Origin: Candidatus Eiseniibacteriota bacterium | Lineage (GTDB): Bacteria > JAFGKV01 | Length of the DNA stretch: 10,856 nt | Assembly (NCBI GenBank): GCA_025453925.1 | Contig: JALOPK010000148.1 | Span: 1-10,856 of the forward strand | Reading direction: 5' to 3' | Part shown: piece after piece, positions 2,942 to 10,856 of the stretch | Numbering within the stretch: the stretch's first letter is position 1 | Layout: the number at the start of each line of letters is the position of its first letter | Notes under the pieces: model-generated | Database searches by the model: none | Told to the model about the DNA's origin: nothing | What the model saw: the letters and a program-made list of their open reading frames with translations, nothing else | Translations under genes and position numbers: made by a program

Positions 2942-3306
2942 GAGAAACCTCCTTCGCAAGCGAGAGAGAAGATGCCCAACAGCAGGCTGACGTTCGCAAC
3001 TAGCAAGAACAAGTCAGATCACTGGGGTCATGTCTCTTATACCTTTGGAGTCCCCGTAACCTGCCCGCCCGTCCTCTCCGGAGGACAAGGGTGTGCGTTG
3101 ACTGCGGGAAGCCCGAAGTCCCAGCATCTAGTGGTGCTGGACCAGGCCCGCGTCCAACGCGGCGGGACCAAGCTCGGAAGATGAAACAAGGCGAACAACA
3201 GCAGATGACAGCCGAGAGCAGGCAGTTCCTTTCGGTTGCGGGCAGGGGCACCGTGGGCGTACCATGGACGCGTTCGGGTGTGTTGAGTTGTCTAAGGAGC
3301 CGGTGC
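2942..3306. other. 365-bp divergent intergenic region with several small inverted repeats
   Basis: The region lies between the minus-strand secreted protein and the plus-strand permease, so promoters for both should be here. No protein with coding character is seen; the open frame running into the permease from 3091 is Arg/Pro/Ser-rich and lacks a start signal. Inverted repeats are GTCCTC/GAGGAC at 3071-3086, CCAGCA/TGCTGG at 3121-3140 and CCGCG/CGCGG at 3148-3162. A GGGG...CCCC-bounded stretch lies at 3024-3055. A TTGACT at 3098-3103 resembles a -35 box but has no good -10 at the right distance. On the minus strand a TATAAG (3036-3041) resembles a -10 but lacks a matching -35. No promoter is called. 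Confidence 0.5.
2948..2953 (-). promoter_or_regulatory. Shine-Dalgarno AGGAGG fixing the start of the secreted papain-fold gene
   Basis: On the minus strand AGGAGG sits 6 bases before ATG 2941. It excludes the longer in-frame TTG start at 2959, whose coding sequence would include this site. Confidence 0.8.
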
Positions 3307-4077
3307 ATGGTGGATCCGCTTTCGCTCAGTGATTCCGTTCTGATTCTGCTCGCGGCGGTGGCCGGTGGCGCGGTGAACGCCATCGCGGGTGGCGGCACGC
3401 TGATCACGTTTCCGATGCTCACTGCGATCGGCATTCCTGCCGTCGCCGCCAATGTAACTAACACCGTTGCCCTCTCTCCCGGTTACCTTGGCGGTACTTT
3501 GGCGCAGCGTGGCGACCTCCGGGGCCAGCGACGAAGGCTGTGGCGGATGCTTCCCGCGGGCGCCGTCGGAGGAGTCCTCGGGGGTCTGCTGCTGTTGGCG
3601 AGTGGAGAGCGGCTGTTCCGTGGGATGGTGCCGTATCTCATCCTGCTGGCCTGCGGCCTGCTCGCGTGTCAAGGGCGGATCCGTGGGTGGGTGGCACAGC
3701 GATCAGGGGGTGCTCAGAACCGCGATAGGGAATGGTTCGCGTCGCTCCCGGTGTTCGGCGCGGCCATCTACGGGGGCTACTTCGGCGCGGGCCTCAGCGT
3801 CATCGTCTTGGCCGTGCTTGGGCTTGTCCTCGATGACAATCTCACCAGGCTCAACGCGTTGAAGCAGGGCATCGCCTTTGCGGTCAACGTCGCCGCCGCG
3901 GTGTTCTTCGTCTTCTCAGGGCAGGTGGTCTGGCCTGCTGCGGCTGTCATGGCGATCGGAGCGTTGGGAGGCGGCGTCATCGGTGGCCGCCTGGCCGGCC
4001 GTGTTCGACCCGACCTGCTCCGCCGTATGGTCATCGGCGTCGGTATGGTGGTGGCGGTGATGTATCTGGTTCGGTAG
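3307..4077 (+). CDS. TauE/SafE-family (DUF81) membrane permease
   Basis: The product is 256 aa, the usual size for this family. The start is ATG 3307, supported by AAGGAG at 3294-3299 (7-base spacer); the frame upstream does not look coding. The protein is an integral membrane protein with about eight hydrophobic segments in two related halves, as expected of TauE/SafE. The first half opens with [19 protein letters not shown] (residues 20-38) and [15 protein letters not shown] (49-63). The second half starts with [18 protein letters not shown] (157-174) followed by [21 protein letters not shown] basic loop (residues 69-80, [12 protein letters not shown]) is likely cytoplasmic. Family members export or take up sulfite, sulfoacetate, sulfolactate or other organic anions; the substrate cannot be read from sequence. 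It stands alone: the gene upstream is divergent and the next gene starts 269 bp downstream. A link to sulfonated-lipid chemistry with the downstream operon is possible but speculative. Confidence 0.88.
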
Positions 4078-4346: not shown

Positions 4347-6068
4347 ATGGGTCGCACGTTCGTCGGAGTGGTCATCTGCATCGTGTCGCTCGCAGCAAGC
4401 ATCATGGCGCAAGGGCATGGGGATAGGTTCGCCATCAGCATCGAGTCCCACGACCAGGGGTGGACCCAGACCTGCTACAACTCGAATGCCGATGAGTATC
4501 TGGTGGTCTGGGAAGACTACCGGGGCGATGCATGCGATGTGTACGGCCAGTTCGTGGGCGGAGATGGTACCCTCAAGGGCTCCAACTTCGCCATTGCCGC
4601 GGCAGCAGGGCATCAGGCCTGGCCCCGGCTGGACTTCGACCCGGTCAACGACCGCGTCCTGGTCGTGTTCGAGCATCACGACCAAAGCACCGCCGACGTC
4701 CGGGGCGTCTTCGTCAACGCCAATGGGACGTTCTACGACGCGCCGACTTCTCTGGAAGATCACACCTTCGGGATCTGCACCAACCCCGCGCGCATCTACA
4801 CCTGTTCGGTGGCATTCAACCCCGAGGCGGGCCGGTATCTCGCCGTGTGGGGGGACTTCCGGAATGACCCTACGAGCGCCAGTTTCACCGGGGCGGATGT
4901 CTATGGCCAGCTCATCGATGCCGACGGAACCCTGCTGCCTCCTCCCTCGCCCGCCGATCCTTCGACGAACTTCGCCATCGCAACCAGCCCCGACATCTAC
5001 GAGAGCGTGGCGGATGTGACCTTCTCCATGGGCACGTGCGAGTGGTTCGTCGTGTATGGGACGAGCACGGGTCTGGTCTGCGGCCAGCGGGTTGACCTCG
5101 GCGGGGACCTGATCGACCAGAATGGCGGCGAGACGGCAACACCGGCGCCCATCGTTGTCTCAAAGCCATTCCAGAACGGTCCCGATTGCTTCCAGGCTCG
5201 CGTCAAAGCCAACTGCGAAGGTCTCCTCGACCAGTCGGGGTGGTACGAGTGCGAGGTCGTGTGGAAGGGGAAGGCCCCGGCGCTGGCCGACAACGATGTG
5301 TGGGGGCAGCGCATCGGTTTCTTCAACGATGCGGGGATCTGGGTGGCGAAGTACGTGGGCATAGACGGCGCGGTCACTGACACCATCTGCAACCATCCTA
5401 TCAGCATCCAGAACGATTGGGTCGGTTCTCCAGACATCGACTACAGTGTCCAGGACAATGAGTTCCTCGTGGCGTGGGGCGACCCGCGGACGAATGGCTG
5501 GTCCGGCCAGGACCTATACTACCAGAGGCTGTGGATTGACACGTCCCAGGGACCGCGGATGGTAATGCTTGCCGACGATCGCCTGAACACGGTGACGGAG
5601 ACCGAGAACATCCCGGTGTTTACCACGCCGGCCTATGAAGGGAGCCTGCTGGGTATCGCCCACAGCGTGACGCGGAACGAGTTCCTCGTGGGGTTCACTT
5701 ACGTGGGCGAGGACGCCGACAACAACGACATCATGGGCGTCATCGCCCATGGCTCGCCACCGGTGAACGCGGATGACGCACCCCTCGTGGATGACCTGCT
5801 GCTCGGGCCATGCACCCCCAATCCATTCGGATCGACAACGACCATCCGGTTCAACCTCCCCCGACCGGGCGCGGCAACGGTGACCATCCGAGACCTCATG
5901 GGCCGCACGGTCGCCACGCTGGCCGCGGGAGTGCGCGAGGCTGGACCCCATGCTGTTCTCTGGGAGGGCACCGATGAAAGGGGTGTGCCGCTCGGTTCCG
6001 GCGTCTACTTGTGCGGCGTGCGATTCGACGGCCGTCTCTCTACCCAGATGGTGTCGCTCATCCGGTAG
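4347..6068 (+). CDS. Secreted seven-repeat (putative beta-propeller) protein with FlgD-like C-terminal domain
   Basis: The product is 573 aa. The start is ATG 4347 with GGGAGG at 4337-4342. Residues 1-21 form a signal peptide with likely cleavage after SIMA. The body holds seven copies of a degenerate unit whose core is a hydrophobic strand ending in W/F/Y-G/E-D and then a DVYGQ-like strand: residues ~51-68 (YLVVWEDYR..DVYGQF), 104-122, 164-189 (YLAVWGDFR..DVYGQL), 233-249, 302-322 (CEVVWKG..DVWGQRI), 373-394 (FLVAWGDPR..LYYQRL) and 446-466. Their spacing of 53-73 residues and their number fit a seven-bladed propeller. Residues ~487-573 are a FlgD-like Ig/sorting domain (CTPNPFGSTTTIRFNLP, RDLMGRTVATL, GVPLGSGVYL). 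About twelve cysteines in the mature protein suggest disulfides outside the cytoplasm. No catalytic motif is seen; binding or adhesion is only a guess. A hairpin follows 24 bp after the stop. Confidence 0.78.
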   Translation: MGRTFVGVVICIVSLAASIMAQGHGDRFAISIESHDQGWTQTCYNSNADEYLVVWEDYRGDACDVYGQFVGGDGTLKGSNFAIAAAAGHQAWPRLDFDPVNDRVLVVFEHHDQSTADVRGVFVNANGTFYDAPTSLEDHTFGICTNPARIYTCSVAFNPEAGRYLAVWGDFRNDPTSASFTGADVYGQLIDADGTLLPPPSPADPSTNFAIATSPDIYESVADVTFSMGTCEWFVVYGTSTGLVCGQRVDLGGDLIDQNGGETATPAPIVVSKPFQNGPDCFQARVKANCEGLLDQSGWYECEVVWKGKAPALADNDVWGQRIGFFNDAGIWVAKYVGIDGAVTDTICNHPISIQNDWVGSPDIDYSVQDNEFLVAWGDPRTNGWSGQDLYYQRLWIDTSQGPRMVMLADDRLNTVTETENIPVFTTPAYEGSLLGIAHSVTRNEFLVGFTYVGEDADNNDIMGVIAHGSPPVNADDAPLVDDLLLGPCTPNPFGSTTTIRFNLPRPGAATVTIRDLMGRTVATLAAGVREAGPHAVLWEGTDERGVPLGSGVYLCGVRFDGRLSTQMVSLIR

Positions 6069-6433: not shown

Positions 6434-7399
6434 ATGCCCGTGAGCTTCTCTCTGACCGCCTCACGGTTCTGGAGCGCCTACTGGATCACCATGCGCCCGT
6501 ACCTGCTCTTCGTGTCGGGCGTGGCCGGCATGGTGGGCATTGCGGCATCAGGCGCAGGCCTCATCCGGTCCGTGGCGGCATTCGCGGCATTCCTCCTCTC
6601 CTATGGCTTCGGCCAGGCATTGACCGATTGCTTCCAGACGGACACTGACTCTCTCTCCTCCCCCTACCGCCCGCTGGTGCGCGGCATCGTCAGCCGCGCT
6701 GACGTGCTTCGCGTCAGCCTCGCCGGACTCGCGCTCTGCTCGGTGCTGCTGATCGCATTGAATCCGTGGGCCATTATCCCTGCCTGCATGGCGGTGAGCG
6801 GCCTGGCGACCTACACGCATTTCAAGCGGCGTTGGTGGGCGGGACCGTGGTACAATGCGTGGATCGTGGCACTTCTGCCGCTCATGGGGCGTCTGGCTGG
6901 AGGAGGCGCTGAATCCGCTGGCCTCGTCGTCGGCACCCCTCCCCTCATCCCATTCATCCTCAGTGTCTTCTTCGGCTATACCAACTTCGTGCTCATGGGC
7001 TACTTCAAGGACATATCCGCGGACCGCGCCAGCGGATATGACACCTTTGTCGTGCGGTTTGGCTGGATCAGGGCCGCCGTCGGCACCGATGTGCTTTCCA
7101 TAGCCACTGTGGCGGCTTCTGCGTGGGGGTTCGTCCGCCACGGTACGGGGGAAACGGTGCCGGCGGCCCTGGTCCTCATCGCCGGGTGGGTGGTCCTGCT
7201 GGCGGCGCAGATCGGCATCCACCGGGTTCGTACCGAGCAGGCGTCCCATGGACCCATCGCAAACGTGGTGAGAGGCTTCGTGTTGGTGCACATCGCGGCG
7301 GCAATTCTCTTCAGGCCGGCATGGCTTCTTGCCGCCGCGCTGTTCTATGCCGCCTTCGAGCTGGCGCTGGCGACTCGGCCCGAGCGGAGCCAGGTGTGA
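6434..7399 (+). CDS. UbiA-family membrane prenyltransferase
   Basis: The product is 321 aa, near the family norm of about 290-320. UbiA enzymes are polytopic membrane proteins that transfer a polyprenyl (or, in the DPPR-synthase branch, phosphoribosyl) group using Mg-bound diphosphate. The N-terminal WITMRPYLLFVSGVAG (residues 17-32) is the usual entry to the first helix. The first Asp motif, normally NDxxDxxxD, reads TDCFQTDTD (64-72), followed by the typical SPYRPLVRG. The second motif is clear: GYFKDISADRASGYDTF (189-205), with K192, D193 and D197. About eight to nine hydrophobic segments are visible. The first-motif Asn and middle Asp are replaced by Thr and Gln, with an extra Asp at 70, suggesting a branch away from UbiA/MenA/COX10. 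It is the first gene of a four-gene unit; the lipid kinase starts 1 bp after its stop. The acceptor is unknown; context suggests a lipid or amino-lipid intermediate. Confidence 0.85.
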   Translation: MPVSFSLTASRFWSAYWITMRPYLLFVSGVAGMVGIAASGAGLIRSVAAFAAFLLSYGFGQALTDCFQTDTDSLSSPYRPLVRGIVSRADVLRVSLAGLALCSVLLIALNPWAIIPACMAVSGLATYTHFKRRWWAGPWYNAWIVALLPLMGRLAGGGAESAGLVVGTPPLIPFILSVFFGYTNFVLMGYFKDISADRASGYDTFVVRFGWIRAAVGTDVLSIATVAASAWGFVRHGTGETVPAALVLIAGWVVLLAAQIGIHRVRTEQASHGPIANVVRGFVLVHIAAAILFRPAWLLAAALFYAAFELALATRPERSQV

Positions 7400-7400
7400 G

Positions 7401-8318
7401 ATGTTGGCCTTGATAAACCCTCGCTGCGACTACGGACGGGGTCTCCGCGCGTGGCGGAGGATTGAGCCTGCCCTCCTCAGCCGCCATCGCGGCCTCGTCG
7501 CGGAGGAGATCCCCCCGGTGCGCCTGCTCCCGCTCCGTCTTGCCCAGGCGGTTGATTCCGGCGAACGCCGGTTCATCGCTGCTGGAGGTGATGGAACGGT
7601 GAATGTGGTCGCGAATGCGCTGATGGGAATCGGCCATGACGTGGCCCTGGGCGCCGTGGCGTTGGGTTCCAGCAACGACTACCACAAGCCTCTGCGCGAT
7701 GCCTTCAGATTGGGAGGAGTCCCCGCGAAGCTCCACTGGGAGGCGGCCGAGCTTCGGGACGTGATACGGGTTCAGCACCGGGACACCCGGGGGGCCGTCG
7801 TCCAGAAGGCCTGCATGATCAACGCAGGGATCGGTATCACGGCCCACGCCAACGCCGTCTACAACGGTCGCCTCCCTGCCATCGCCAGGCTCCAACGGGT
7901 TTCGGTGGAAGCCGCGATCCTCGCATCAGTGGTGCACGCACTCAGGACGTTCACGCCCCTTCCGTGCGACGTCGCCATCGATGGCAGTCCGCCCACTCGG
8001 CTCGCGCTCACGAACCTGGCGGTGCTCAAGAGCCCCCATGTGGGCGGCGCCCTCTGTTACGACACACCGGTGAGACCTTCTGACGGCACCATGAAGATCA
8101 ACATCTGCATGAACATGACCAGAATGGAGACCGTTCGCACGCTCATCAACCTGTACCGGCACCGGTTTTCGGGCTCACCAAAGACCTTTTGCCGCGCGGC
8201 CGCGACGGTGAAGGTAACGGGTGCGACGCGCTTCGCGCTGGAGCTGGATGGGGAAGTGGTCAGCGCCACTGAGGCATGTTTTCAGCTCGTACCCGGTGCC
8301 CTGAGGTGCTGCCCATGA
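7401..8318 (+). CDS. Diacylglycerol/sphingosine-kinase family lipid kinase (DAGK_cat, YegS-like)
   Basis: The product is 305 aa, the size of bacterial YegS/DgkB-type lipid kinases. The start is ATG 7401, 1 bp after the UbiA stop, with AGGTG at 7392-7396. The frame upstream overlaps UbiA and is not used. Residues 1-10 (MLALINPRCD) form the typical first strand of the nucleotide domain. The GGDGT ATP-binding motif is at 62-66 (AAGGDGTVNVVANAL). A second loop reads ALGSSNDYHKPL (87-98), where most relatives have LGTxNDFA. INAGIGITAHAN matches the family's third conserved stretch. DGE at 283-285 (ELDGEVV) fits the catalytic Asp/Glu region of the second domain. The family phosphorylates diacylglycerol, sphingoid bases, ceramide or phosphatidylglycerol with ATP at the membrane surface. 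An SPT-type enzyme in the same operon makes a long-chain-base-like substrate attractive, but this is inference. The gene overlaps the next by 4 bp. Confidence 0.83.
   Translation: MLALINPRCDYGRGLRAWRRIEPALLSRHRGLVAEEIPPVRLLPLRLAQAVDSGERRFIAAGGDGTVNVVANALMGIGHDVALGAVALGSSNDYHKPLRDAFRLGGVPAKLHWEAAELRDVIRVQHRDTRGAVVQKACMINAGIGITAHANAVYNGRLPAIARLQRVSVEAAILASVVHALRTFTPLPCDVAIDGSPPTRLALTNLAVLKSPHVGGALCYDTPVRPSDGTMKINICMNMTRMETVRTLINLYRHRFSGSPKTFCRAAATVKVTGATRFALELDGEVVSATEACFQLVPGALRCCP
8303..8308 (+). promoter_or_regulatory. Shine-Dalgarno GAGGTG inside the kinase gene, fixing the next start
   Basis: GAGGTG lies 6 bases before ATG 8315 and within the last codons of the lipid kinase gene. It supports the ATGA overlap start over an in-frame ATG at 8276 that lacks such a site. 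Confidence 0.7.
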
Positions 8319-9361
8319 TCGTCGTCAACAAAATCCGCGAACTGAACGCCATTGACAACTGGGTGCGGCATTTTACGCGGGCCCCGCACCAGTGGAATGT
8401 CGTCCACCAGTCTGACGCTGAGCTGGTCGCGCTGCCGGGCACCGATCGGCTGCTGGCCATCACCATCGACACCGTGGCCGAGGAGATCGTCACTGGCCTC
8501 TACCGGGAGCCATTCACCATGGGATGGGTCGCGGTGATGGCGAGTCTCAGCGATCTGGCCGCCGTTGCCGCCGATCCCCTGGGTCTCGTTGTCTCGGTCG
8601 TGCTGGAACCCGGCCGCGACGACTCATTTAGGACCGCTCTGGCGCAGGGTATGGCCGCCGCCTGTGATGCGGGCGGCACGTTCCTCCTGGGTGGTGATAC
8701 CAATACCGCGATCTCGCCTTCGCTCACCACGTGCGCCATTGGTATCGTGTCCCGGCGTCCCGTGCTCAACCGCGTGGGGTGCCGGCCGGGCGATACGGTG
8801 TTCCTCAGCGGCCCCGCAGGCGCCGGGAGCGCCCTGGCCCTGTCCCGGTTCCTCCACAGCGAAGGGTTTCCGGAGGGCAGTTACCGGCCTGTCGCCAGGC
8901 TGAATGTCCGGCAGACCATTCGCCGATTCGCCACGGCCTGCATGGACACCAGCGATGGGCTCCTGCCTACGCTGGACCAGCTCATGCGGCTCAATGGCAT
9001 GGGATTCCGGATCACCCAAGATGTCGCGCACATACTCGATCGCCGGGCGCTGCGCCTCGCAGTCGAGGCGGATCTCCCGCCTTGGTTCATGCTGGCCGGT
9101 CCCCACGGGGAGTTCGAACTGGTCCTCACCGTACCCCAGGGGCTCACGGAGCACTTCATGGCAGAAGCCCGCTCCGCTGGTTGGGAGCCGGTGATGACAG
9201 GCACGGTGACTGAGGAGATCGGCGTCAAGATGGCCATCGATGGCCGCCAATGCGCCGTGGACACGGCGGGAGTGCGGAACCTGTTCGACGAAGTCAGCGG
9301 CGACATCAGCCGCTATGCGCGCGGGCTGGCTGCCATGCTGGTCCCAGAACCGGAGGTGTGA
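8315..9361 (+). CDS. ThiL/AIR synthase-fold (PurM-like) protein, putative ATP-dependent kinase
   Basis: The product is 348 aa, the size of thiamine-monophosphate kinase. The start is ATG 8315, overlapping the kinase stop as ATGA with GAGGTG before it. The order of motifs follows ThiL/PurM: SDAELV (33-38) where ThiL has a DDAA-type acidic motif, TIDTVAEEI (50-58) for ThiL TTDxLVE, GWVAVMASLSDLAAVAADP (70-88) for GWKALAxNLSDLAAMGA, GGDTN (126-130), a MDTSDGLLPTL stretch (210-220) for IDISDGLxxDL, and HGEFELVLTVP (264-274) for GEDYELLFT. The fold and nucleotide-binding scaffold are therefore kept, while some metal-binding acidic positions differ (first Asp of the DD pair is Ser; GEDYE reads HGEFE). 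True ThiL makes thiamine diphosphate, but no thiamine gene is nearby. Placement between a lipid kinase and an oxoamine synthase suggests recruitment to another phosphorylation or ATP-dependent amide/amidine-type step. The substrate is unknown. Confidence 0.8.
   Translation: MIVVNKIRELNAIDNWVRHFTRAPHQWNVVHQSDAELVALPGTDRLLAITIDTVAEEIVTGLYREPFTMGWVAVMASLSDLAAVAADPLGLVVSVVLEPGRDDSFRTALAQGMAAACDAGGTFLLGGDTNTAISPSLTTCAIGIVSRRPVLNRVGCRPGDTVFLSGPAGAGSALALSRFLHSEGFPEGSYRPVARLNVRQTIRRFATACMDTSDGLLPTLDQLMRLNGMGFRITQDVAHILDRRALRLAVEADLPPWFMLAGPHGEFELVLTVPQGLTEHFMAEARSAGWEPVMTGTVTEEIGVKMAIDGRQCAVDTAGVRNLFDEVSGDISRYARGLAAMLVPEPEV
9352..9358 (+). promoter_or_regulatory. Shine-Dalgarno GGAGGTG fixing the oxoamine synthase start
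   Basis: GGAGGTG sits 4 bases before ATG 9363 and overlaps the last codons of the ThiL-like gene. It indicates tight translational coupling across the 1-bp gap. Confidence 0.75.
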
Positions 9362-9362
9362 A

Positions 9363-10664
9363 ATGTTCGGCTCAGGCACGTACCAGGGCGGTGAGAACTT
9401 CAGCTTGCGGGACGTGCTCCAGCAGGGCAGAGCGCTCAATCTCCGGGAGCGTACCGCGCTCTTTGGTTCCGTGCTGGATTCGCTCGCGCTGGGCGGCCGA
9501 AACCTCTACCGCCGGGAGGTGCAGACAGCGGCGGACAGGGAAGTGCTCGTCGCCGACCCGGCCTCCGGCCAGATCACGCCGCTGCTCATGTTCGGCTCCA
9601 ACAACTACCTTGGATTGGCCAATCACCCCTATGTGAAGACCCAGGTGCGGCGCGCAGTGGCGACCTATGGAGTCGGAGTCGGAGGGCCGCCCCTGCTCAA
9701 TGGCTATACCTCGCTCCACCGGAAGCTCGAGGAACGTCTTGCCGTCCTCAAACACGCCGAGGACGCCATGCTGTTCTCAACGGGCTACGGGGCCAACGTG
9801 GGCCTCGTCACCGGGTTGGCGGGTCCCAAAGACTTCGTGCTGTACGATGAATACAGCCATGCTTCCTTCTGCGATGGCATCAAGATGGCTGGCGCTCGCG
9901 CACTCCGATTCCGGCACAACGACGTCGCCCGACTGGAGCGGATGCTGGAGCGATTTGCGCCCAGCGCGGAGCGGGACACCTTCGTGGGGGTCGAGGGAGT
10001 GTACTCTATGGATGGGGACGCCGCTCCCCTTGACAAGATCGTCCCCGTGTGCCACCGCCACGGGGCGCTGGTGGTGCTCGATGACGCCCACGGCACGGGG
10101 GTGATGGGGCCCACCGGCAGCGGTACGGCCGAGCACTTCGGCGTCGAGGGTTCCGTCGACGTCACCATGGGCACGTTCAGCAAAGCCTTCGGCGTCGTGG
10201 GAGGCTTCGTCTGCGCCTCGAAGCCGATCATCGATTACCTGCGGTTCTTCGCCCGGTCGTACATGTTCTCCGCGTCGCTTCCACCGATCGTAGTTGCGGC
10301 CGTGCTTGCGGGACTCGACGTCACGGAGCAAGAGCCCGGCCTCCTGAGGGCGCTCCGAAGCAACGTCGCCTATGCGACGCGCGGGCTGCGCGGACTGGGG
10401 TTCGAGGTGGATCCCGCCGCGGCTATCATCGTGCTGAGAGTGCCCGAGGATATGGATATCCGGCGCGCCGCGGGGCGTTTCCACGATGCCGGTATCTTCG
10501 TGAACTCCATCGAATACCCCGCCGTGCCCCTTCATGAGCAGCGCTTCCGCATCAGCATCATGGCGACGCACACCACGGCTGACATCGACCGCCTGCTGGC
10601 CGTCGTGAAGGACATCTGGGCGGATCGGTCGCTTCGCGTGGCGGACGAGAACCTCGCCGCATAG
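9363..10664 (+). CDS. PLP-dependent alpha-oxoamine synthase (SPT/KBL/AONS family)
   Basis: The product is 433 aa, longer than AONS/KBL (~385-400) because of a ~45-residue N-terminal extension, and closer to SPT-like enzymes. The family joins an amino acid to an acyl thioester with loss of CO2 (or CoA only), giving an alpha-amino ketone. Visible motifs: MFGSNNYLGLANHP (76-89), LLNGYTSLHRKLEERL (111-126), FSTGYGANVG (138-147), YSHASFCDG with the cofactor-stacking H166, VEGVYSMDGDAAPL (210-223), LDDAHGTGVMG with D240 and H243, TFSKAFGVVGGF with the Schiff-base K274, and YMFSASLPP (300-308). FRHND (183-187) and the FGSNNYLGL wording resemble the SPT/sulfonolipid-synthase side more than BioF; this is by eye. 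Odd point: the conserved GSR or GTR after the N-terminal glycines reads GPP (108-110). It ends a four-gene operon with UbiA, lipid kinase and ThiL-like genes; no bio or tdh gene is nearby. A long-chain-base-type product is the favoured inference. Confidence 0.9.
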   Translation: MFGSGTYQGGENFSLRDVLQQGRALNLRERTALFGSVLDSLALGGRNLYRREVQTAADREVLVADPASGQITPLLMFGSNNYLGLANHPYVKTQVRRAVATYGVGVGGPPLLNGYTSLHRKLEERLAVLKHAEDAMLFSTGYGANVGLVTGLAGPKDFVLYDEYSHASFCDGIKMAGARALRFRHNDVARLERMLERFAPSAERDTFVGVEGVYSMDGDAAPLDKIVPVCHRHGALVVLDDAHGTGVMGPTGSGTAEHFGVEGSVDVTMGTFSKAFGVVGGFVCASKPIIDYLRFFARSYMFSASLPPIVVAAVLAGLDVTEQEPGLLRALRSNVAYATRGLRGLGFEVDPAAAIIVLRVPEDMDIRRAAGRFHDAGIFVNSIEYPAVPLHEQRFRISIMATHTTADIDRLLAVVKDIWADRSLRVADENLAA

Positions 10665-10819: not shown

Positions 10820-10856
10820 ATGACGATGGACACACTGCTGCTCTACGTGGGCGCGT
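10820..10856 (+). CDS. Start of an unidentified protein, 3'-partial, hydrophobic N-terminus
   Basis: Only about 12 codons are present: MTMDTLLLYVGA. A strong purine-rich site (AAGGAGGGAGG, 10809-10819) precedes two in-frame ATGs. ATG 10820 has AAGGAGG with a 4-base spacer; ATG 10826 has GGGAGG with a 6-base spacer. The second gives MDTLLLYVGA and is about equally likely. The hydrophobic beginning suggests a membrane segment or signal peptide. The family cannot be told. It follows the four-gene operon on the same strand after 155 bp and may or may not be cotranscribed. Confidence 0.55.
   Translation, partial: MTMDTLLLYVGA

Follow-up and report, generated by a model that had tools for sequence, protein, structure and literature searches.

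A recurrent four-gene block of UbiA-like, lipid kinase, ThiL-like and alpha-oxoamine synthase genes as a candidate lipid-biosynthesis cassette

The window analyzed here, a whole contig of 10,856 bp (G000:C152) from an 82% complete genome of a Candidatus Eiseniibacteriota bacterium, carries toward its right end four co-directional genes that encode a UbiA-like membrane protein, a DAGK-type lipid kinase, a ThiL-like protein and an alpha-oxoamine synthase (AOS). The block lies in the window as follows, with the sources of each assignment in brackets:

6434..7399, + strand: UbiA-superfamily membrane prenyltransferase-like protein, 321 aa (Pfam PF01040, 11-member alignment, PDB profile, Foldseek)
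7401..8318, + strand: DAGK/YegS-type lipid kinase, 305 aa (Pfam DAGK_cat and YegS_C, alignment)
8315..9361, + strand: ThiL-like (AIRS/PurM-fold) protein, 348 aa (TIGR01379, tree, structure model, fold match)
9363..10664, + strand: alpha-oxoamine synthase, 433 aa (Pfam, NCBIfam, PDB, trees)

The open reading frames (ORFs) are joined by a 1-bp gap, a 4-bp ATGA overlap and a second 1-bp gap. When the frames were re-read, the genes, their order and their junctions were as a first-pass annotation of this sequence had given them, and Pfam matched each of its four family assignments. No complete feature follows the block on the contig; about 190 bp remain after the AOS gene, an ORF begins at 10820, and a further downstream member may have been cut off by the contig end. 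The GC content of the block (0.65) is close to that of the left part of the window (0.636) and within the range of other contigs of the same genome (0.59 to 0.69); composition thus gives no sign that the contig was mis-binned, although mis-binning could still have occurred. Promoter and terminator scans found nothing, and the ThiL-like protein had no relative at 1e-20 among plasmid records.

Examination of gene neighborhoods revealed the same core in distantly related genomes, bearing out the earlier suggestion of a conserved block. Our census is a sample of genomes in which many carriers are fragmented metagenome-assembled genomes (MAGs), and the trees are small. Two layouts were found, type A (UbiA-DAGK-ThiL-AOS) at eight loci (the window, L026, L027 and L062 to L066), and type B (AOS-UbiA-DAGK-ThiL) at 11 loci (L031, L032 and L045 to L053). 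The ThiL-like gene adjoins the DAGK gene in 21 of the 21 loci read, and UbiA and AOS genes adjoin this kinase pair in every locus with a long enough contig, except in genome G190 (L033:7408-9904, on G190:C174), where the pair has neither as a neighbor. A 626-aa frame in G190 raised the possibility of a DAGK-ThiL fusion, which we rejected; the frame spans a gap of Ns, after which the DAGK C-terminus has its own stop, overlapping the ThiL-like start, and the genes are merely adjacent. Immediate neighbors of the G190 pair are a protein resembling thymidylate kinase and an ORF that combines PEP-utiliser mobile and HAD domains; an acyl carrier protein, an AMP ligase and a GT2 glycosyltransferase are also found near it.

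While the UbiA, DAGK and ThiL-like genes are the constant part of the loci, the remaining members vary. Both L026 (an Ignavibacteriae MAG contig) and L027 (a contig of bacterium BMS3Abin03), which were reached via a ThiL-like relative, have the window's gene order followed by a B12-binding radical-SAM gene, which is optional among the loci. In the type-B genomes of family f70, the block is followed by genes for an acyl-CoA ligase, a short-chain dehydrogenase (SDR), a B12 radical-SAM protein and a small protein, and in L062 a different SDR gene lies directly upstream of UbiA. The first-pass annotation had named a reductase, an acyl carrier protein and an acyltransferase as possible recurring members; the SDR reductase fits this expectation, but the other two were not seen recurring beside the four-gene block, and the B12 radical-SAM protein and acyl-CoA ligase had not been foreseen. 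The protein of about 150 aa that closes the long type-B clusters (L045:3903-4358 and equivalents in L046 to L050) is without any Pfam or NCBIfam match.

In a domain-wide sample, the ThiL-like protein was present at E<=1e-50 in only 4 of 386 genomes. It was found in 12 of the 20 genomes of a small phylum whose sampled members all belong to family f70, and in 6 of 395 sampled genomes of the phylum of the Ignavibacteriae genome, that genome counted. The window's genus and family relatives (G001 and G002) are without it, and GC content across the loci ranges from 0.31 to 0.71. The distribution of the block is patchy. Its presence in genomes so distantly related puts the arrangement far outside what chance would produce. 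Each family is common by itself (UbiA occurs in all 14 control genomes), as would be expected if four unrelated housekeeping genes had simply come to be neighbors, but this explanation is refuted by the recurrence of the block; its conservation across distant genomes, the separate paralogs of each family and the single ThiL-like clade leave the probability of such a cluster close to nil.

NCBIfam scores, paralogs within the genome and the tree indicate that none of the four genes is the housekeeping BioF, ThiL, MenA/UbiA or DgkB. A canonical ThiL is encoded elsewhere in the window's genome (G000:C434; 286.9 bits, above the TIGR01379 cut-off) and also in carriers G008, G389 and G398, whereas the block ThiL-like proteins score below that cut-off. 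DAGK (PF00781) occurs in G000 at both C152 and C88, compared to one DAGK in each of the sister genomes, and there are four further UbiA-type matches. A second AOS at G000:C501 is most similar to serine palmitoyltransferase (SPT; 540.9 bits against a cut-off of 640) and adjoins a GNAT gene (L102:6843-9421); the two may be a conventional sphingolipid pair that is separate from the block. The first-pass annotation had named two circumstances that would tell against its reading, that the genes be neighbors in this genome only or that they be housekeeping copies, and neither is the case.

The second protein of the block belongs to the DAGK/YegS lipid kinases (DAGK_cat, 46.5 bits against a cut-off of 23.6; YegS_C, 56.5 bits), and falls below the threshold for the YegS/BmrU subfamily (TIGR00147, 72.2 against 118.65 bits). 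GGDGTxN is invariant in the alignment of block DAGKs, and ExDGE is kept in all but the gapped G190 row. Its constant neighbor, the ThiL-like protein, matches AIRS (66.9 bits) and AIRS_C (25.2 bits) in Pfam, with ThiL as its best match by hidden Markov model (HMM), profile and fold, and with PurM, HypE and SelD also matching. ThiL structures came first among fold matches of its structure model (pLDDT, the predicted local distance difference test, 91), and it shares with ThiL both the fold and the metal- and ATP-binding aspartates, D34, D52, D80, D128, D211 and D214 being invariant in 12 members and aligning with those of ThiL. However, it scores below the ThiL equivalog cut-off (TIGR01379, 152 against 184.15 bits), most block members have G(P/Q)HGEFEL where ThiL has GGDDYEL, and the block proteins form one clade on a long branch (1.38 changes per column; SH-aLRT, an approximate likelihood ratio test, 99) relative to canonical ThiL and other AIRS proteins. 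No thiamine pyrophosphate riboswitch or any other Rfam match was found in six loci, and since canonical ThiL is present elsewhere in several carriers, we rejected thiamine metabolism as the main role.

Membership of the AIRS superfamily, which includes PurM, HypE and SelD, would also allow a ring-forming or dehydrating role, in which the ThiL-like protein uses ATP for cyclisation or dehydration of an aminoketone-derived intermediate, resulting in a heterocyclic lipid or a molecule resembling an electron carrier. Aminoketones are well known as precursors of rings. The better match to ThiL by all three approaches argues against this role, as does the constant position next to a lipid kinase, a setting that points to a phosphate substrate, and we consider it very unlikely. 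In ThiL itself, thiamine phosphate makes an in-line attack on ATP through its phosphate, and its far (pyrimidine) end is solvent-exposed (PMC6416309). By analogy, such an exposed end would leave room for another group in the ThiL-like site. We favor reading the kinase and the ThiL-like protein as partners that act in tandem to make a lipid diphosphate, rather than as carrying out two separate phosphorylations, and a two-kinase route from alcohol through phosphate to diphosphate is accepted in polyprenol salvage (PMC9782597). Of all parts of our proposal, we are most confident in this putative tandem step, because the two genes stayed together at every locus read, G190 included, and because ThiL chemistry is exactly the conversion of a phosphate to a diphosphate.

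The window AOS matches Aminotran_1_2 (183.4 bits), and H166, D241, H243, K274 (the pyridoxal phosphate lysine) and R396 are invariant in three type-A AOS, in agreement with its family assignment. It scores below the equivalog thresholds for both BioF (TIGR00858, 362.9 against 426.45 bits) and SPT (NF047600, 343.7 against 640 bits), the latter also being out of reach of two type-B AOS (444.8 and 456 bits). A PDB search gave Sphingobacterium SPT as the nearest solved relative, and trees placed the window AOS in a different clade from the SPT-like second AOS of the genome. At window positions 9681-9710 (AOS residues 107-116), type-A proteins have GGPPLLNGYT where SPT and type-B AOS have the SRxLxGT motif, and this difference may reflect a different amino-acid substrate. 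The best AOS tree splits type A from type B; a single-clade tree was not rejected (approximately unbiased test, p-AU 0.135), and two independent recruitments of AOS are therefore not established. In the UbiA tree the window protein groups with type B (support 93), though the window AOS is of type A, which hints at an exchange of AOS.

It is conceivable that the block is an ordinary sphingolipid operon, in which the AOS makes 3-ketosphinganine, the DAGK-type protein is a sphingoid or ceramide kinase, and the UbiA and ThiL-like genes are passengers. The SPT-like AOS, AMP ligase and SDR of these clusters do parallel Caulobacter aasR, cerR, acpR and spt (PMC11324152). However, the putative passengers and the DAGK gene are precisely the constant members while the rest vary, the window's genome already has another SPT-like AOS beside the GNAT gene, and the block AOS lies far under the SPT cut-off, making this explanation unlikely.

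The first gene of the block encodes a member of the UbiA superfamily (PF01040, 76.8 bits against a cut-off of 34.2). Foldseek matched it to 6m31, 4tq4 and 4od5, with 6m31 best by this approach and by PDB profile; its nearest solved structures are archaeal digeranylgeranylglyceryl phosphate (DGGGP) synthase (6m31) and chlorophyll synthase, both of which are O-alkylating. Motif II is kept (K192-D193 and D197), but the canonical NDxxDxxxD of motif I is replaced by TDCxQxDTDSxSxPYRPL, in which T64-D65-x-x-Q68-x-x-x-D72 is invariant in 11 members. UbiA enzymes need a diphosphate donor, and their donors are normally allylic.

From the families, their synteny, the dedicated paralogs and the conserved catalytic residues, we infer each of the reactions that follow, including the amino acid used and the carrier of the diphosphate. 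Our reading, which we hold tentatively and at slightly less than even confidence, is that these genes form a cassette, patchily distributed and dedicated to lipid biosynthesis, in which the DAGK/ThiL-like tandem makes a diphosphate and the UbiA-like protein joins it with the AOS product. The first-pass annotation had inferred an aminoketone lipid that is phosphorylated and then joined by UbiA to a prenyl or other group; our results bear this out in part, with a prenyl-linked aminoketone lipid as a candidate product. In the longer clusters, the acyl-CoA ligase would supply acyl-CoA, which the AOS would condense with an amino acid to form a sphingoid-like aminoketone, to be reduced by the SDR where one is present. 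The DAGK-type kinase would phosphorylate a lipid alcohol, and the ThiL-like enzyme would add a second phosphate, as ThiL does on thiamine phosphate, giving a lipid diphosphate whose carrier could be the AOS product itself, or an isoprenoid or other alcohol. With the diphosphate as leaving group, the UbiA-like enzyme would then build the AOS product into a lipid through an ether or amine linkage, and the radical-SAM protein, where present, might modify that lipid.

Several points weigh against this scheme. A plain sphingoid diphosphate is non-allylic, unlike normal UbiA donors, and with the change of motif I from NDxxD to TDxxQ the UbiA-like protein may not bind an ordinary prenyl diphosphate. 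Prenyl diphosphates are presumably already made by the cells, which leaves no obvious need for a salvage pair. In several genomes, including that of the window (where the contig ends), the radical-SAM, ligase and SDR genes do not adjoin the block, and the radical-SAM protein was found nowhere in G000 at E<=1e-60. Finally, the lipid product itself is a prediction.

The same genes could instead make a prenylated phospho-sphingoid, with the DAGK-type kinase phosphorylating the primary hydroxyl of the AOS/SDR product, UbiA, in the manner of DGGGP synthase, moving an ordinary prenyl chain from prenyl diphosphate to the resulting lipid phosphate, and the ThiL-like protein making a pyrophosphate head group last. 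DGGGP synthase, the nearest structure, takes a lipid phosphate as acceptor, and DAGK-fold enzymes include sphingosine kinases. In addition, ceramide kinase functions in Caulobacter sphingolipid synthesis (PMC11324152), and in L027 polyprenyl-diphosphate-synthase-like and type-2 isopentenyl-diphosphate-isomerase-like genes (L027:3630-5665; named by eye from sequence) lie divergent, upstream of the block. However, such genes were noticed beside that one locus only, an ordinary prenyl donor may be a poor fit for the altered motif I, and gene order ties the ThiL-like protein to the DAGK rather than to a late step. We therefore consider this alternative doubtful.

If the tandem-kinase scheme is correct, the cassette would point to a new lipid class and a new enzyme role, that of a ThiL-fold lipid-phosphate kinase, in little-cultured phyla. 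We know of no other PurM/ThiL-fold member with such a role. Somewhat more tentatively than the scheme itself, we postulate that the cassette makes bacterial membrane lipids of a class not described before, amino-lipids derived from the AOS product that receive an alkyl or prenyl group via UbiA from the diphosphate made by the DAGK and ThiL-like proteins, with the ThiL-like clade acting as the lipid-phosphate kinase. The scheme would also assign two bacterial genes to the kinase route from alcohol to diphosphate, for which most genes have yet to be identified beyond photosynthetic organisms (PMC9782597). The block is compact, with only four genes, which makes the question testable in a laboratory strain.

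Elsewhere in the window are genes for a CARDB/C39-like protein (1019-2959, - strand), a TauE/SafE permease (3295-4074, + strand) and a protein with a FlgD-Ig C-terminal domain (4347-6065, + strand); no link between these and the block was seen.

In the open-access literature searched, which leaves most subscription papers outside it, we found no paper placing UbiA together with an alpha-oxoamine synthase, none with three of the four family names, and no occurrence of the phrase prenylated sphingolipid. AOS-based lipid cassettes are already known as a kind, and there is a real chance that the product here is a new lipid class. Among the closest known systems are bacterial sphingolipid operons such as that of Caulobacter (spt, cerR, acpR, aasR, cerS and ceramide kinase; PMC11324152), which share an AOS of SPT type, a short-chain reductase and an AMP-dependent acyl ligase with the longer clusters, and a lipid kinase with the block. 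An SDR gene adjoins the block in type B and also in L062, and among those neighbors that were scanned no ceramide synthase was recognized. In contrast to the Caulobacter operon, the block has constant UbiA and ThiL-like genes, a B12 radical-SAM gene, and an AOS under the SPT cut-off, the window-type AOS being in a clade of its own. It is because of this combination of likeness and difference, and of the lack of a linking paper in the literature searched, that we rate the block as an AOS-based lipid cassette with a possible new product. DGGGP synthase (6m31), which O-alkylates a lipid phosphate, is closest to the UbiA-like protein by sequence profile and fold, but the two share only 17% identity in the fold alignment, motif I is TDxxQ, and the score is far under the DGGGP synthase cut-off (PRK12882, 51.6 against 296 bits). 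In polyprenol salvage, an alcohol kinase (VTE5/FOLK) and then a phosphate kinase (VTE6) feed diphosphate-using enzymes (PMC9782597); the logic proposed here, from alcohol through phosphate and diphosphate to a transferase, would be the same, while the kinases are of the DAGK and ThiL-like families and an AOS belongs to the unit.

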